Positions 3,246-16,653 of a stretch of DNA of 64,000 nt are shown here, one piece after another. Origin of the DNA: Halorubrum salipaludis (GTDB lineage: Archaea; Halobacteriota; Halobacteria; Halobacteriales; Haloferacaceae); assembly GCF_002286985.1 (NCBI RefSeq), contig NZ_NSKC01000001.1, positions 310,001-374,000 of the forward strand, in the 5' to 3' direction. Position numbers and translations under genes: made by a program. Position 1 is the first letter of the stretch. Each line of letters starts with the position of its first letter. The notes under the pieces were generated by a model. It made no database searches. It was not told where the DNA came from and saw only the letters and a list, made by a program, of their open reading frames with translations.

Positions 3246-4904
3246 ATGCCACGCGATGACTCGGACGTGAACCGCCGGACGTACCTCAAGTACGTCGGAG
3301 GCACTGCGGCCGCCGTCGGGCTGGCCGGCTGTTCGGACGACGGCGGCGACGGAGGGGACGGAAGCGACGGGAGCGACGGCGACGACGGGTCGGACGGGAT
3401 GGACGGCTCCGACGGGGAGGACGGAGACGACGAAGAGCAGCTCCCGGAGCCGGAGACCCGCGAGGAACACCTCCAGCGCGCGAACCTGCGGCTCAACGAG
3501 CGCGCCCCGTGGATCTTCCTCAACCGGCAGTACAGCGTGTACGGCATCGCGAGCCGGCTCGACTGGGACGCCCGCCGGGACGAGCGGATCGAGGCGCAGG
3601 CCATCTCGGTGACGGAGGGCGAGCCGTCTGTCACGATCACCCAGTCGTCGATGGACTCGGGGCTCGACCCCCACGACCACCGCGAGACGCCGACCGACAA
3701 CATCGTGGTGCAGGCCCACGACGGCGTGCTCGGCCGCAACGCCGACGGCGACATCATCGATGCGCTCGCGACCGACTACGAGCGGCTCGAAGACGGGCGG
3801 GTCCGGTTCGAGATCCGCGACGGCGTCACCTTCCACAACGGCGACGAGCTCCAGCCCGCGGACGTCGCCTACAGCGTCAACCGCGTCGTCGACCCCGAGG
3901 TCGGGATCGAGAGCCCGCAGAGCGACCAGCTCGCCGGCGTCACGGGCGCCGAGGTCGTCGACGGCGGGGTCGAGGTGACCTCCGACGGGATCAACCCGAT
4001 CGTGTTCTCGCTTTTCGCCTCGTACTGTAAGGTCGTCCAGCAGGACTGGATCGAGTCGCGCGAGTCCTCGGAGATCAACTCCGACATGAACGGGACCGGT
4101 CCGTTCCAGGTCGTCGAGTACGAGCAGGACGTGGAGATCGTCTACGAGCCCTACGAGGACTACTGGGGCGACGCGCCGGAGATCGATGAGCTGACGATCC
4201 GCGCCGCCAGCGAGTCGAGCACGCGGGTCTCGGAGCTGCTCGCCGGCGAGACGGACCTGGTCGTCAACGTGCCGCCGCAGGAAGTGAGCCGCGTCCGCGA
4301 CGAGGACAGCACGGAGGTCGCGGCGGTGCCGAGCACCCGCGTCATCTTCAACGCCATGCGCTACGACGTGGAGCCGTTCTCCAGCCCGGAGTTCCGGCGG
4401 GCGCTGAACTACGCGATCGACCTGGACAGCATCATCGAGAACATCTTACAGGGGTTCGCCGACCCGACCGGCCAGCCCACCCTCGAGGGATTCGTCGGCT
4501 ACAACGAGGAGGTCGACCCGTACCCGCAGGACGTCGAGCAGGCCGAACAGCTCGTCGAGGACTCCGGCCACGCCGGCGCCGAGATCACCCTCGAAACGCC
4601 CGTGGGACGGTACCTCCGCGACGTGGAGATCGCGCAGGCGGTCGCCAGCCAGATCGACGAGCTCTCGAACGTCTCCTGCGAGGTCGAGCAGCGCGACTTC
4701 GGCTCGCTCGCGGGCGAGGTGACGAGCGGCAACATCGAGGACATGCCGCACTTCTACCTGCTCGGCTGGGGGAACACCACGTTCGACGCCAGCCAGACGA
4801 TCATCCCGCTTCTCACCTCCGACGGGGCGCTCTCCAGCTACCGGGAAGACGAGGAAGTCGACGAGCTCATGGCGGACTCCCAGAGCCTGCCGGGCGGAAA
4901 CTGA
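3246..4904 (+). CDS. Peptide ABC transporter substrate-binding lipoprotein, apparently circularly permuted (SBP_bac_5)
   Basis: A 552-residue exported solute receptor. A Tat signal (NRRTYLKYVGG) is followed by lipobox LAGC (Cys29) and an Asp/Gly-rich linker to about residue 65. Residues 127-212 are the usual start of the mature family 5 fold (SGLDPHDH, then RDGVTFHNGDEL, PADVAYSVNRVV). Oddly, residues about 70-121 (REEHLQRANLRLNERAPWIFL and following) match the segment that normally closes the C terminus of this family, while the protein ends early at ADSQSLPGGN. The second receptor in this window has the equivalent APWVYMDY segment at residues 539-545 of 576. The gene heads an operon; dppB starts 6 nt after the stop. 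Ligand is inferred to be peptides or similar solutes. Confidence 0.88.
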   Translation: MPRDDSDVNRRTYLKYVGGTAAAVGLAGCSDDGGDGGDGSDGSDGDDGSDGMDGSDGEDGDDEEQLPEPETREEHLQRANLRLNERAPWIFLNRQYSVYGIASRLDWDARRDERIEAQAISVTEGEPSVTITQSSMDSGLDPHDHRETPTDNIVVQAHDGVLGRNADGDIIDALATDYERLEDGRVRFEIRDGVTFHNGDELQPADVAYSVNRVVDPEVGIESPQSDQLAGVTGAEVVDGGVEVTSDGINPIVFSLFASYCKVVQQDWIESRESSEINSDMNGTGPFQVVEYEQDVEIVYEPYEDYWGDAPEIDELTIRAASESSTRVSELLAGETDLVVNVPPQEVSRVRDEDSTEVAAVPSTRVIFNAMRYDVEPFSSPEFRRALNYAIDLDSIIENILQGFADPTGQPTLEGFVGYNEEVDPYPQDVEQAEQLVEDSGHAGAEITLETPVGRYLRDVEIAQAVASQIDELSNVSCEVEQRDFGSLAGEVTSGNIEDMPHFYLLGWGNTTFDASQTIIPLLTSDGALSSYREDEEVDELMADSQSLPGGN

Positions 4905-5930: not shown

Positions 5931-6048
5931 TGACGAACCGATGTCTCCCCGTTCTCTCGGGCGGTGTCGAGCGTCGCACGGGCGACTCCCGAACGACCGA
6001 GGCGTCGCGCGGGGTCCCTCCCGTTACGATTCCGGGGGTGATCCTCGG

Positions 6049-7068
6049 GTGATCTCTCCGCGGACGCTCCGGAACCTCCGGAGCGAGCTCTCGCGGAGCC
6101 TCCTCGCGAAGCTCGGGATCGCGATCCTCGCGGTGATCCTCTTTACCGCGCTGTTCGCCCCGCTTCTGGCGCCGCACGACCCGACGGACCAGAACCTCGA
6201 CAACGCGAACGTCCCGCCGCTCGGGTTCACGGCGACCGAGAACCAGACGACCTCGCAGATGGTCGACGGCGAGGTGCAGATCGTCGAGGAGGAGGTCGTC
6301 GTCAACACCACGGCCGAACACCCGCTGGGCACGGACTCGCTCGGCCGCGACGTGCTCTCCCGCACGATGTTCGGCGCGCGCACGTCGCTTCTGGTCGGCC
6401 TGCTCGGGACCTCGATCGCCGTCGTGCTCGGCGTCACCGTCGGGATCACCGCCGGCTACTACGGCGGCCGGATCGACGACGCGCTGATGCGCTTCGCCGA
6501 CGTCATGCTCGCGTTCCCGTCGCTCGTGCTGGCGATCGCGCTGATCGGGCTGTGGGGGCAGGCGTCGTGGCGCATCCCCGATCCGCTGGTCGCCCTCGGG
6601 ATCGCCTCCTCGGAAATGCCGGAACACGTCGTGTTACCGGGGACCGTGATCGTCGTCGTCGCGCTCGTGAACTGGGTGTGGTTCGCCCGCGTCGCGCGGG
6701 GGGAGGCGCTCTCCGTCCGCGATCAGGAGTACGTGAAGGCGGCGCGATCGATGGGCGGAAGCGATCTCCACGTGATACTCAAACACGTGCTCCCGAACAG
6801 CCTGACGCCGATCTTAGTGCTCGCGACGATCCAGATCGCCGCGATCATCCTGTTAGAGTCCTCGCTGTCGTTCCTCGGCTTCTCGGGGGCGCAGCTCTCG
6901 TGGGGCTTCGACATCGCGCAGGGCCGGCAGTACCTCTCGTCGTCGTGGTGGATCGCGACCGTCCCCGGACTGGCCATCGTCGCCGCCGTCATCGGGATCA
7001 ACCTGATCGGCGACTGGCTCCGCGACGCCCTCGATCCGGGCATCGAGGGGCAGGGGGGTGCGCCGTGA
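6049..7068 (+). CDS. dppC: Peptide ABC transporter permease, DppC type
   Basis: A 339-residue permease: N-terminal TM (IAILAVILFTALFAPLLAPHDP), the HPLGTDSLGRDVLSR motif typical of DppC/OppC, and an EAA loop (YVKAARSMGGSDLHVILKHVLPN). I prefer the GTG at 6049 (ISPRTLRNLR) because family similarity begins there. A longer in-frame ATG at 5941 would add a low-similarity Arg/Ser-rich stretch. The GTG overlaps the TGA of a 40-codon frame opened inside the dppB stop, so translation from dppB to dppC may be coupled through that mini-frame. The stop overlaps the GTG of the next gene (GTGA at 7065-7068). Confidence 0.85.
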   Translation: MISPRTLRNLRSELSRSLLAKLGIAILAVILFTALFAPLLAPHDPTDQNLDNANVPPLGFTATENQTTSQMVDGEVQIVEEEVVVNTTAEHPLGTDSLGRDVLSRTMFGARTSLLVGLLGTSIAVVLGVTVGITAGYYGGRIDDALMRFADVMLAFPSLVLAIALIGLWGQASWRIPDPLVALGIASSEMPEHVVLPGTVIVVVALVNWVWFARVARGEALSVRDQEYVKAARSMGGSDLHVILKHVLPNSLTPILVLATIQIAAIILLESSLSFLGFSGAQLSWGFDIAQGRQYLSSSWWIATVPGLAIVAAVIGINLIGDWLRDALDPGIEGQGGAP

Positions 7069-8327
7069 CCGACCTGCTGCGCGTCCGGGACCTCTCGACG
7101 CGCTTCTTCACCGAGGAGGGCCAGATCAACGCGGTCGAGAACGTCTCCTTCACGGTGGAGGCCGGCTCCGTCCTCGGCGTCGTCGGCGAGTCCGGCAGCG
7201 GGAAGTCCGTCACCGGGCTCTCGCTCATCGACCTCGTCGAGTCGCCGGGGCGGATTACGAGCGGCGAGATCTGGTACAACAACGCCGACCTCGCGGAGCG
7301 GGTCGACGGCGACCGGCCCGAGGCGGTCGACGGCGACTTCGTCGACCTCCGCCGGCTCTCCGAGGCGGAGCGCCGGTCGCTCCGCGGCTCCGCGTTCAGC
7401 ATGATCTTCCAAGACCCGATGAGCAGCTTCAACCCCTCGATCACCGTCGGCGAGCAGATCGCCGAGGCGGCCGAGGTGCAGCGCCGCGCGAGCGCGAACC
7501 CCCGCTCGACCCGATCGCGGACGCAGGGGTACGGGCTGGGGAAACTGCTCCTCGACGGCGTCCTCCCCGACCGCTCGTACACCTCCGCGGAGAGCTGGGA
7601 CCGCGCGGTCGAGCTGCTCGAGCGCGTCGGCATCCCCGACCCCGCCGAGCGCGCCGAGGAGTACCCGCACCAGTTCTCCGGCGGGATGCTCCAGCGCGCG
7701 ATGATCGCGCAGGCGCTCGCCGGCGACCCGGACCTGCTCGTCGCGGACGAGCCGACGACCGCGCTGGACGTGACCATCCAGGCGCAGATCCTCGACCTCC
7801 TCGCCGACCTCCAGGAGACCATGGAGATGAGCGTCGTGCTCATCACCCACAACCTCGGTGTCATCGCCCGCGTCGCCGACCGGGTGAGCGTCATGTACGC
7901 CGGCGAGGTGGTCGAGCGCGGCACCCTCGAAGACGTGTTCGACGACCCGGTCCACCCGTACACGAAGGGGCTGTTGGGCTCGGTGCCGGACATCGACCGC
8001 CCGGGCGAGCGGCTCGAACCCATCGCGGGCAACGTGCCGGACCTCGTCGACGCGAACATGCCCGACCGCTGTTACTTCGCCGACCGCTGTCCGAAAGCCA
8101 TGACCGACTGTCTCACCCGACCGCCGGAGTACGACGTGAGCGAGGGGCACCGCGCCCGCTGCGTCCTCGCCGAACGCGAGTACAGCGAGGCCGACGCGGT
8201 CCCGGAGGGGAGACTCTCGGGCCCGACGGACGACGCGGGGACGCCCGGGGGCGGGTCGGTCGGCCCCGGCGAGTCGGGTGCCTCCGACCGGTCCAGCGAG
8301 ACCGACGCGGAGGTGAGCGATGACTGA
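7065..8327 (+). CDS. dppD: Peptide ABC transporter ATP-binding protein, DppD type
   Basis: A 420-residue cytoplasmic ATPase starting at GTG 7065 within the dppC stop. Walker A is GESGSGKSV, the Q-loop [11 protein letters not shown], the signature FSGGMLQRA, Walker [13 protein letters not shown], and the H-loop ITHNLG. After the nucleotide-binding domain lies the oligopeptide-transporter C-terminal region with a cysteine motif ([14 protein letters not shown]), which in this family can bind an Fe-S cluster or zinc. The last 40 residues are low-complexity and acidic. It should pair with the DppF-type ATPase downstream, whose ATG overlaps this stop (8320-8327). Confidence 0.9.
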
Positions 8328-9651
8328 CCCGCTCGTGACCGTCGACGGCCTCGAGAAGTACTACTACGAGAACGACACCCTGCTCGACCGGCTGACCGGC
8401 GCGGAGCGGGAGGCGGTGCGCGCGGTCGACGGCGTCTCCTTCGAGGTCCGCGAGGGCGAGACGCTCGGCGTCGTCGGCGAGTCCGGCTGCGGGAAGTCGA
8501 CGCTCGCGGAGACGCTGATGCGCCTCCGCGAGCCCACCGGCGGCTCCGTGACGTTCGACGGCGACCCCGTCTACGAGCTCTCCGGCGACGACATGGACGC
8601 GTTCAGGCGGCGGGCGCAGGTGATGTTCCAGGACCCGTTCTCCAGTCTGGACCCGCGGATGACCGCCGGCGAGATCATCACGGAACCGCTCGCGATCCAC
8701 GGCGTGGGAACCGGCGCGGAGCGGCGCGAGCGCGCCGAGACCCTCCTAGAGGAGGTGGGGCTCTCCGCCGACCAGATCGACCGGTACCCCCACGAGTTCT
8801 CCGGCGGCCAGCGCCAGCGCATCGGGTTCGCCCGCGCGCTCGCCATCGATCCGGAGTTCGTCGTCCTCGACGAACCGGTGAGCGCGCTCGACGTGAGCGT
8901 GCAGGCGCAGGTGCTGAACCTGCTCGCCGACATGCAGGCGGAACGCGACCTGACGTACCTGTTCATCGCGCACGACCTGTCGGTAGTCCGTCACATCTCC
9001 GATCGGGTCGCCGTGATGTACCTCGGCGAAATCGTCGAGATCGGCCCCACCGAAGAGATCTTCGAGGACCCGCAACACCCGTACACGAAGGCGCTTCTGG
9101 AGTCCGTCCCGCGGGCGGACACCGACGAGCGGGACCGCGTCGTCGAGACGATCCGCGGCGACGTGCCCTCGCCGCGGGACCCCCCCTCGGGCTGCTCGTT
9201 CCGGACGCGGTGTCCGGAGCTTATCCAGCCGCCGTGGCTGGACGCGCCGCAGGCGGCGTTCCGCGAGATCAGCGAGTTCAGGACCCGGATCGAGAACGGC
9301 GACATCGACGTGGACACGCGGTGGGAGCAGGTGGGCGACCCCGACCGCGAGGACCGGGCGGCGTTCGTCGACTCCCTGTACGCCGAGGCGTTCGACGAGG
9401 ACCTCCCCGACGACGACGAGGGGACGGTCCGCGAGGCGATCCGCGCGCTCGCCGACGGTGACCGCGAGGCCGCCGCGGCGACGCTGCGAGAGCGCTATCG
9501 GTCGCCCTGCGAGGCGGTCGATCCCGCGTTACCGGCTGGGGAACACCCCTCCGCGTGCCTGTTGAACGAGCAGCCGGACGACGTGGAGGCGGCCCGCGAG
9601 GAGTGGGAGGCCGACCGCGACGCTCCGGGGGTCGGCGCGTCGTCGCGGTAA
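8320..9651 (+). CDS. dppF: Peptide ABC transporter ATP-binding protein, DppF type
   Basis: A 443-residue ATPase: Walker [10 protein letters not shown] at 53-61, Q-loop [11 protein letters not shown] at 103-113, signature FSGGQ at 160-164, Walker B VVLDEP at 181-186. The C-terminal region has the cysteine motif [10 protein letters not shown]. Beyond the usual DppF end there is an extension ([19 protein letters not shown]) that matches the tail of the fused ATPase at 13942-16653, so the extension is a shared haloarchaeal trait. It completes the five-gene importer. Start ATG overlaps the dppD stop by 8 nt. It converges with the second importer cluster. Confidence 0.9.
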
Positions 9652-11987: not shown

Positions 11988-13718
11988 CTACTCCAGCGAG
12001 ACCAGGTTCAGGTACGGACCGCTGATCGCGGCGATCTGGAACCCGCTGACCCTGTTCGCGACGCCGCGGAGCTCCTCAGCGTAGTCCATGTACACCCACG
12101 GCGCCTCGTCGTGGGCGACTTCCATCGCGTCGTTGTACAGGTCGACGCGGTCGCTCTCGTCGGTCGTCTGCTGGGCCTCCTCGACCAGGTCCATGTACTC
12201 TCGGTTCGCCCACGCCGAGCGGTTGCTCGTGTTGTACCCCTCGGCGTCGAAGCTCACCCAGTCCTCTCCCTCGGTGAGCTCGCTCTCCTCGACCTGCGGG
12301 TGGAGGAGGACGTACGCGAAGTTGTCCGGGTCCGCGTTGTCGGTGTACCACCCGAGGAAACACGCGTCGTGACGGCCCTGCGCGGTGTACTCGAGGTACG
12401 GCGAGAACGACTGCTGGTTGATCTCCACGTCAATACCGATCTCACCGAGGTTGGACGCGACGGTCTCGGCGGTCTGGATCGGCGAGGGGTTGTATCCGCG
12501 GGGGTTCTGGAACGTCGCCAGCTCGAAGGAGAACCCGTCGCCGTAGCCGGCCTCCTCGAGCAGGCTCTGGGCCTGCTCGGGGTCGTACTCGTACGGGTCG
12601 AGGTCGTCGTTGTGCCCCAGCACGTTCGGCGGCAGCGGCTGGCTGGCCTCCGTCGCGAATCCGGAGTAGATCTCGTTGACGATCGCCTCGGTGTTGATCG
12701 CGTGGCTGATCGCCTGCCGGACGCGGCGGTCCTGGAACTCCTCGACCGCCGCGATGTTGAACGCCATGTAGCCGATGTTGATCCCCTCGGTGCGGACCAG
12801 TTCGGCGTTGTCGTAGCCGTCGACCTGCTGAGAGGACTGCGCGCCGAGCCCGTCGATGATGTCGAGCTCCCCGCTTCCGAGCGACTGCGCCCGGGTGGAG
12901 TTCTCGCCGACCGTGACGAACACGACCTCGTCGACGTTCGGGCCCTCGCCCCAGTAGTCGTCGTACGCGGCGAGCCGGACCTGCTCGTTGGAGTCGTCGA
13001 GCGTGTCGAGCTCGAACGGCCCCGTCCCGACCGCGTTCTCGGAGAGGTCGGTGCCGTACTCCTCGATGGCGGCCTCGGAGTGGACCGCGGCCGCGAACAT
13101 CGCCAGGTTCCGCAGGAACGGCGCGTACGTCTGGGTGAGCTGGATCGTCAGCTCGTAGTCGCCGTCGACCTGGATCTCGTCGATCCAGCTGCCGAGCGTG
13201 AAGGGGCCGTACGCGGAGACGTAGTCGTCGCCGGCGTAGTACTCGTACTCAGAGTCGACGAAGCGGCGGTACGTCGCCACGAAGTCCTGTGCGGTGAACT
13301 CCTCGCCGTTGTGGAAGGTGACCCCCTCCTTCAGCGTAAGCGACGCCGTCTGGCCGTCGAGCGAGTAGTCGGACGCGAGCCCGTCGGTGAGCGTCGATTC
13401 GCCCGGCTCGAAGTTGATGAGCGTGTCGTAGATCTGCTCGGTGACCTTGGCGACCTCGCCGCTCGTGCTGTTCTGGAAGTCCAGCGTCGGCGAGTGGCTC
13501 CCCCGGCCGTACCGAAGCAGGCTCGTTTCGTCGCCGCCGTCGGAGCCGTCCGACCCGTCGGAGCCGTCCGATCCATCGGACCCGTCGGAGCCGTCCGACC
13601 CGTCCGAACCGTCAGAATCGCCGTTTCCGGAACACCCGGCGAGACCGACCGTAACCGCGGCGCCACCGGCGGCACCGAGGAACTTACGCCGTGAAACGTT
13701 CGTGTCGCGGGATGACAT
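11988..13718 (-). CDS. Peptide ABC transporter substrate-binding lipoprotein (second system)
   Basis: A 576-residue receptor. Tat motif SRRKFLGAAGG, lipobox LAGC with Cys29, then a low-complexity linker of repeated GSD triplets to about residue 60 (nt 13540-13620). The mature fold has the normal family 5 order: KEGVTFHNGEEF near residue 130, and the closing APWVYMDY segment at 539-546 followed by VSGFQIA. It therefore serves as an internal control for the rearranged receptor at 3246-4904. It has its own promoter (TTTATACT at 13742-13749), although the fused ATPase gene upstream ends only about 220 nt before it. Confidence 0.92.
   Translation of the reverse strand: MSSRDTNVSRRKFLGAAGGAAVTVGLAGCSGNGDSDGSDGSDGSDGSDGSDGSDGSDGSDGGDETSLLRYGRGSHSPTLDFQNSTSGEVAKVTEQIYDTLINFEPGESTLTDGLASDYSLDGQTASLTLKEGVTFHNGEEFTAQDFVATYRRFVDSEYEYYAGDDYVSAYGPFTLGSWIDEIQVDGDYELTIQLTQTYAPFLRNLAMFAAAVHSEAAIEEYGTDLSENAVGTGPFELDTLDDSNEQVRLAAYDDYWGEGPNVDEVVFVTVGENSTRAQSLGSGELDIIDGLGAQSSQQVDGYDNAELVRTEGINIGYMAFNIAAVEEFQDRRVRQAISHAINTEAIVNEIYSGFATEASQPLPPNVLGHNDDLDPYEYDPEQAQSLLEEAGYGDGFSFELATFQNPRGYNPSPIQTAETVASNLGEIGIDVEINQQSFSPYLEYTAQGRHDACFLGWYTDNADPDNFAYVLLHPQVEESELTEGEDWVSFDAEGYNTSNRSAWANREYMDLVEEAQQTTDESDRVDLYNDAMEVAHDEAPWVYMDYAEELRGVANRVSGFQIAAISGPYLNLVSLE

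Positions 13719-13941: not shown

Positions 13942-16653
<2,712 letters not shown>

Follow-up and report, generated by a model that had tools for sequence, protein, structure and literature searches.

How does a solute-binding receptor come to carry at its front the segment with which its relatives end, and is such a protein a working receptor? The question is raised by an open reading frame in the window, that is, the whole stretch of 64,000 nucleotides of haloarchaeal DNA analysed here. An initial annotation had described its product as an apparent natural circular permutation, in which the C-terminal block of family 5 receptors precedes the mature N-terminal block. The open reading frame, its coordinates, its motifs and its ADSQSLPGGN end were all reproduced, including the comparison with the paralogue in the window, in which APWVYMDY stands at residues 539-546 of 576, i.e. 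the block is C-terminal. The features, in window coordinates, are as follows.

3246-4904, + strand: open reading frame of the permuted receptor, 552 amino acids
3246-3332, + strand: twin-arginine signal peptide (NRRTYLK) and lipobox LAGC, predicted from the sequence
3333-3443, + strand: low-complexity Gly/Asp/Ser tether, residues 30-66, as seen in the sequence
3444-3608, + strand: transposed block, residues 67-121 (HMM of linear C-termini, identity to L037, AF2)
3597-3629, + strand: join of the old C-terminus (block) to the old mature N-terminus, residues ~118-128, ISVTEGEPS (by comparison with linear relatives)
3630-4901, + strand: receptor body in normal order, residues 129-552, PF00496 (Pfam, Foldseek)
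4872-4904, + strand: new C-terminus ADSQSLPGGN and stop; in linear relatives, the loop ahead of the block helix
4911-5930, + strand: DppB-type permease (NCBIfam), adjoining the receptor in permuted and linear loci
5941-7068, + strand: DppC-type permease (conserved operon)
7065-8327, + strand: DppD-type ATPase (NCBIfam, conserved operon)
8320-9651, + strand: DppF-type ATPase (NCBIfam, conserved operon)
11988-13718, - strand: linear family 5 paralogue, the internal control, with PF00496 at 113-475

Chain order of the receptor

The window protein belongs to solute-binding family 5, cluster C (PF00496), and is a lipoprotein of the Tat type. It matches PF00496 (SBP_bac_5) over residues 171-527 and profile positions 3-365 of 368 (E = 3.4e-66, 224 bits, curated cut-off 32.4 bits). 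Cys29 is its predicted lipid anchor, and a twin-arginine motif is present in 93 of the 94 homologues with a lipobox. The NCBIfam equivalog models (NikA/GsiB/Opp4A) match the receptor far below their cut-offs, and therefore no ligand can be assigned to it. Residues 1-66, which comprise the signal peptide, the lipobox and the low-complexity linker, have kept their N-terminal place; the block follows them and precedes VTITQ, the mature N-terminal strand (residue 129). Residues 67-121 read PEPETREEHLQRANLRLNERAPWIFLNRQYSVYGIASRLDWDARRDERIEAQAIS, with APWIF at 87-91 and VYGIAS just after, while FHNGDELQPADV is found farther on; the counterpart of this block is the closing segment of the linear protein L037, QRESLLQEANALINEQAPWIFLNRQYSVYGVSNRVEWSARRDERINAYAM. 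The window receptor stops at MADSQSLPGGN, at the loop that in the linear counterpart, as DSLVADAQSTSDED, precedes the block.

With a profile HMM built only from the last 62 amino acids of 16 linear relatives, 101 distinct homologues were searched. The profile matches residues 67-121 of the window receptor (E = 6.8e-28), which confirms the placement of the C-terminal block ahead of the mature N-terminal block, and finds no match at the receptor's C-terminus. The block is N-terminal in 42 of the 101 homologues and C-terminal in the other 59, and in none is it present at both ends, an arrangement in linear orthologues that the initial annotation had named as speaking against a permutation; an extra N-terminal domain alongside a retained C-terminal block was rejected on the same count. 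Beyond the body, permuted proteins have 0-27 residues left, against about 53-66 in linear haloarchaeal proteins. Taken alone, the window block is 62% identical to the C-terminus of L037 over 53 amino acids (E = 1e-22). Aligned in its native order, the window protein gives two crossing stretches with L037, but once body and block are restored to the normal order a single colinear alignment results (66% identity, 483 columns), running from 8-488 of the reordered protein to 95-569 of L037. Each segment of the linear protein is thus present once and in rotated order, as defines a circular permutation, and judged by its sequence the window receptor is a natural circular permutation within a retained export leader.

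A structure predicted with AF2 for residues 64-552 reached a pLDDT of 76 and a pTM of 0.72 from a shallow alignment of 19 rows; with the full leader, untrimmed, the pLDDT was only 61. In the trimmed model the block is confidently predicted as a helix over residues 72-86 followed by a long strand over 89-102, and its block averages lie between 68 and 85. Foldseek aligns the model sequentially to the family 5 structures 5u4o, 5za4 and 1uqw (TM 0.70-0.74). Though of moderate quality, the model matches the cluster C fold. The block would presumably pack as the helix and strand do at a linear C-terminus.

Spread, operon context and number of order switches

The initial annotation had also proposed a search for orthologues of the same order, and these are plentiful: nine further Halorubrum genomes (87-94% identity to the window protein) and dozens from other genera and families. 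At least six families of the haloarchaeal order have permuted receptors, at 41-70% identity to the window protein, and the metagenome-assembled genome QH_10_67_22 encodes one as well; the permuted forms are intact open reading frames, many of them from near-complete assemblies. The apparent permutation is thereby borne out by independent genomes as well as by the HMM counts and the reordered alignment. When the permuted order was sought in the bacterial loci L058-L061, all proved linear, and since the window paralogue and the haloarchaeal outgroups are linear too, the sequences point to linear order as the ancestral state.

In the window and its relatives the receptor is followed by DppB, DppC, DppD and DppF, two permeases and two ATPases as in family 5 operons, with a gap of 6 nt in the window between the receptor stop and the DppB gene. 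Where the flanking sequence is long enough, orthologous Dpp genes follow the receptor in nearly every locus, whether the receptor is permuted or linear; none was found in the available stretch at the linear loci L139 and L152. In Halorubrum, the operon occupies a slot with conserved flanks, between a phosphoribosyltransferase gene and a second dpp operon. This slot holds a permuted operon in L157-L159, a linear one in L153 (both flanks) and in L154-L156 and L161 (phosphoribosyltransferase side), and no operon in L160. The receptor of the slot's linear operon is about 60% identical to that of the permuted operon, and its DppB about 68%. The shared slot and the similar operons suggest that the two orders are exchangeable receptors of the same transporter type.

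Some irregular genes were seen in these operons. In the linear dpp operon next door, both ATPases are fused in one protein of 903 amino acids (window 13942-16653, - strand). In L187 (G435) the permuted receptor continues in frame into DppB over 915 codons with no intervening stop, possibly as a receptor-permease fusion or through a lost stop codon. In L168 (G347) the receptor frame shifts shortly before the end, and dppB is read through in another frame; this copy is frameshifted or mis-sequenced.

The permuted proteins do not form a single clade. AU tests reject such a clade in the body trees (p = 4.6e-7, and p = 1e-43 with more members) and in the DppB tree (p = 2e-58). A second permuted clade, clade A (L063, L116, L117, L164 and the frameshifted L168), has linear sisters of its own, L166, L167 and L169. 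The DppB tree keeps the five clade A permuted proteins together (91/85) and apart from these sisters; the body tree places the sisters beside L063 and L117 (98/95), and does not reject the five as one clade (p = 0.06). In the block tree, which has only 53 columns and leaves many forks unresolved, the main-clade blocks (FLNRQYSVYG...RRDERI) group together, close to the linear relatives of that clade, and the clade A blocks (FLHQQYSIYG...DEDI) resemble those of linear L067, L072 and L166. Both permuted clades share the loop at which the chain is cut, and in both a short linker connects the old termini. As one clade is rejected, and as the blocks of each clade resemble those of its own linear relatives, I infer that the permutation arose independently at least twice, each time by displacement of the protein's own C-terminus.

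On a single origin of the main permuted clade the data sets differ: the body does not reject it (p = 0.18 and 0.38), body and block combined favour it, DppB rejects it (p = 0.005) and the concatenated operon rejects it weakly (p = 0.028). A linear clade with a long stem (L136, L137, L144, L082, L044, L047) stands beside the permuted L030/L090 in the DppB and operon trees, with L136, L044, L082 and L144 next to that pair in the operon tree (100/99). This placement hints at either a re-linearisation or recombination within operons; the block tree does not group this linear clade with the permuted blocks.

Alternatively, one ancient permutation in a common ancestor could have been followed by several reversions to linear order. 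Parsimony on the operon trees counts three changes, with their direction not fixed; the linear clade nested by L030/L090 would fit a reversion, and the DppB rejection of one main permuted clade likewise points to a reversion, or a recombination of operons, on at least one occasion. However, the outgroups, the other subfamilies and the sampled bacterial homologues are linear, many reversions would be needed to account for all the linear clades that separate the two permuted ones, and the blocks of each permuted clade resemble their own linear relatives, which together make a single ancient event unlikely. That chain order acts as an evolutionary switch, with at least two permutations in the same loop, at least one return to linear order and operons interchangeable in the slot of one genus, I propose tentatively, at somewhat less than even odds.

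Origin of the block and integrity of the receptor

In separate trees the block and the body fall in the same subfamily, and for this reason the block most probably derives from the C-terminus of the protein itself rather than from a foreign source. The N-terminal block could instead be a domain acquired from another receptor, with the C-terminus lost independently; such a chimera was weighed for the receptor TpMglB-2 by its authors (PMC4990184), and the short block trees with their many open forks leave it some room. It is nevertheless very improbable, as the blocks are 57-62% identical to the C-termini of those linear proteins that are closest in body, as block and body point to one subfamily in both permuted clades, and as loss of the C-terminal block coincides with gain of the N-terminal one in all 42 permuted proteins.

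Still less credible is a decaying, non-functional receptor, in favour of which there is nothing beyond the odd order. Among the Halorubrum orthologues, pairwise dN/dS is 0.195 for the block and 0.230 for the body; both are under similar purifying selection (about 0.2), which rules out decay, while the open reading frames are intact in nearly all genomes and the operon is conserved. A misassembly, cloning chimera or other one-off rearrangement of a linear gene, raised in the initial annotation and brought to mind by the 27-contig draft from which the window comes, has a negligible chance, since the same order in independent genomes excludes an assembly error: it recurs in 42 distinct proteins. 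These come from many assemblies made independently, of which several are nearly closed (G020, G053, G093, G104, G147), and their identity to the window protein ranges from ~41 to 94%, which does not fit one copied error.

I therefore favour, with a probability of about 0.92, a functional, lipid-anchored, extracellular cluster C receptor of the DppA/NikA/GsiB-like kind that serves DppBCDF and whose own C-terminal segment of ~55 amino acids has moved to the front and been lost from the end. Within this explanation, the data establish the order, its conservation, the operon, the selection and at least two order switches. The receptor would be exported by the Tat pathway in a folded state and lipid-anchored at Cys29, and, from what is established for the family, the cluster C domain would capture a small solute (a peptide, metal chelate or similar) and hand it to DppBCDF. 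In an ancestor of many haloarchaeal operons, the helix-strand segment would have moved ahead of the mature N-terminus, behind signal peptide and tether, and would then have been absent from the protein's end. A linker of ~8-11 residues would bridge the old termini, and the new termini would lie in the loop before the block helix. By analogy with its linear relatives, the permuted receptor presumably folds and closes on its ligand as they do. Whereas the membrane tether of a linear form leads into the mature domain at its first strand, that of the permuted receptor would lead into the opening helix of the block and reach the lobe at a different point, with a free C-terminus left in a surface loop. 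In L091, L095, L096 and L099 (f4 genomes), a tether-like, low-complexity tail of 16-27 residues rich in Gly, Ser and Asn follows the new C-terminus.

Two routes to the permuted order may be envisaged: either part of the gene was duplicated in tandem and the first body and the last block were then deleted, or a piece of ~165 bp was transposed directly into the repetitive DNA of the linker. A duplicated intermediate with both blocks was found neither in the 101 homologues nor in those added later; such a form would favour just one of the mechanisms and is not needed for a permutation. The distance from cysteine to domain has a median of 34 amino acids in permuted and 32.5 in linear proteins, and these similar lengths rule out tether length as an explanation; any benefit is thus to be expected in the attachment point, the folding order or the exposure of the chain end.

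Relation to known permuted proteins

Natural circular permutations have mostly been recognised via structure and between distant proteins. Here the linear and permuted forms are 60-70% identical and have the operon, the leader and even the genomic slot in common. Such close pairs permit direct tests of how permutations arise, and of folding, ligand affinity, permease docking and selection on the tether position. Profile tools of the Pfam type cover only the middle of the protein, and therefore such permutations are overlooked. Sensor design may further profit from the loop as a split site that is permissive by nature, and if chain order is indeed a switch, these operons form a natural experiment on the causes of a change in tether point and chain order.

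A literature search on permuted ABC receptors, with subscription papers largely outside its scope, returned only TpMglB-2 and engineered sensors, and no report of a permuted family 5/cluster C or haloarchaeal receptor. Reviewed models of permutation are duplication and fission-fusion, and the transhydrogenase arrangements are considered independently fused (PMC3320104). In saposin/swaposin, the DNA methyltransferases and the transhydrogenases, the order changed and the fold was retained (PMC3320104), as is proposed for the haloarchaeal receptor. However, unlike in these classical permutations, the signal peptide, lipobox and tether remain in front, and therefore a simple tandem duplication that gained a new start and a new stop codon would be insufficient.

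The linear family 5 receptors (DppA 1dpe, GsiB 1uqw, 5u4o) have body sequence, fold and operon in common with the window receptor and differ from it in their normal chain order. Closer still are the linear haloarchaeal relatives (L037 and L122; L166 for clade A), with 65-70% body identity to their permuted kin and the same operon and Tat lipoprotein leader, but with the block at the C-terminus.

The closest precedent is TpMglB-2 (Tp0684), the glucose receptor of Treponema pallidum, a natural circular permutation for which the class 'Type Ic / Cluster Bc' was proposed (PMC4990184). Like the haloarchaeal receptor it is a lipid-anchored, permuted ABC receptor; its permuted form was found across a clade of organisms, and its authors suggested that tethering might relate to the permutation (PMC4990184). 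However, TpMglB-2 has the cluster B/type I fold and binds sugars, whereas the haloarchaeal receptor belongs to PF00496 and cluster C, and the type I/cluster B fold of the Type Ic / Cluster Bc class is not found in the window protein. TpMglB-2 carries the first three strands of its N-lobe near the C-terminus, and this moved part is only 13% identical to its counterpart (PMC4990184). In the haloarchaeal receptor, by contrast, it is the C-terminal helix and strand that moved frontward, with about 60% identity to their counterpart, with linear sisters, and with at least two switches of order.
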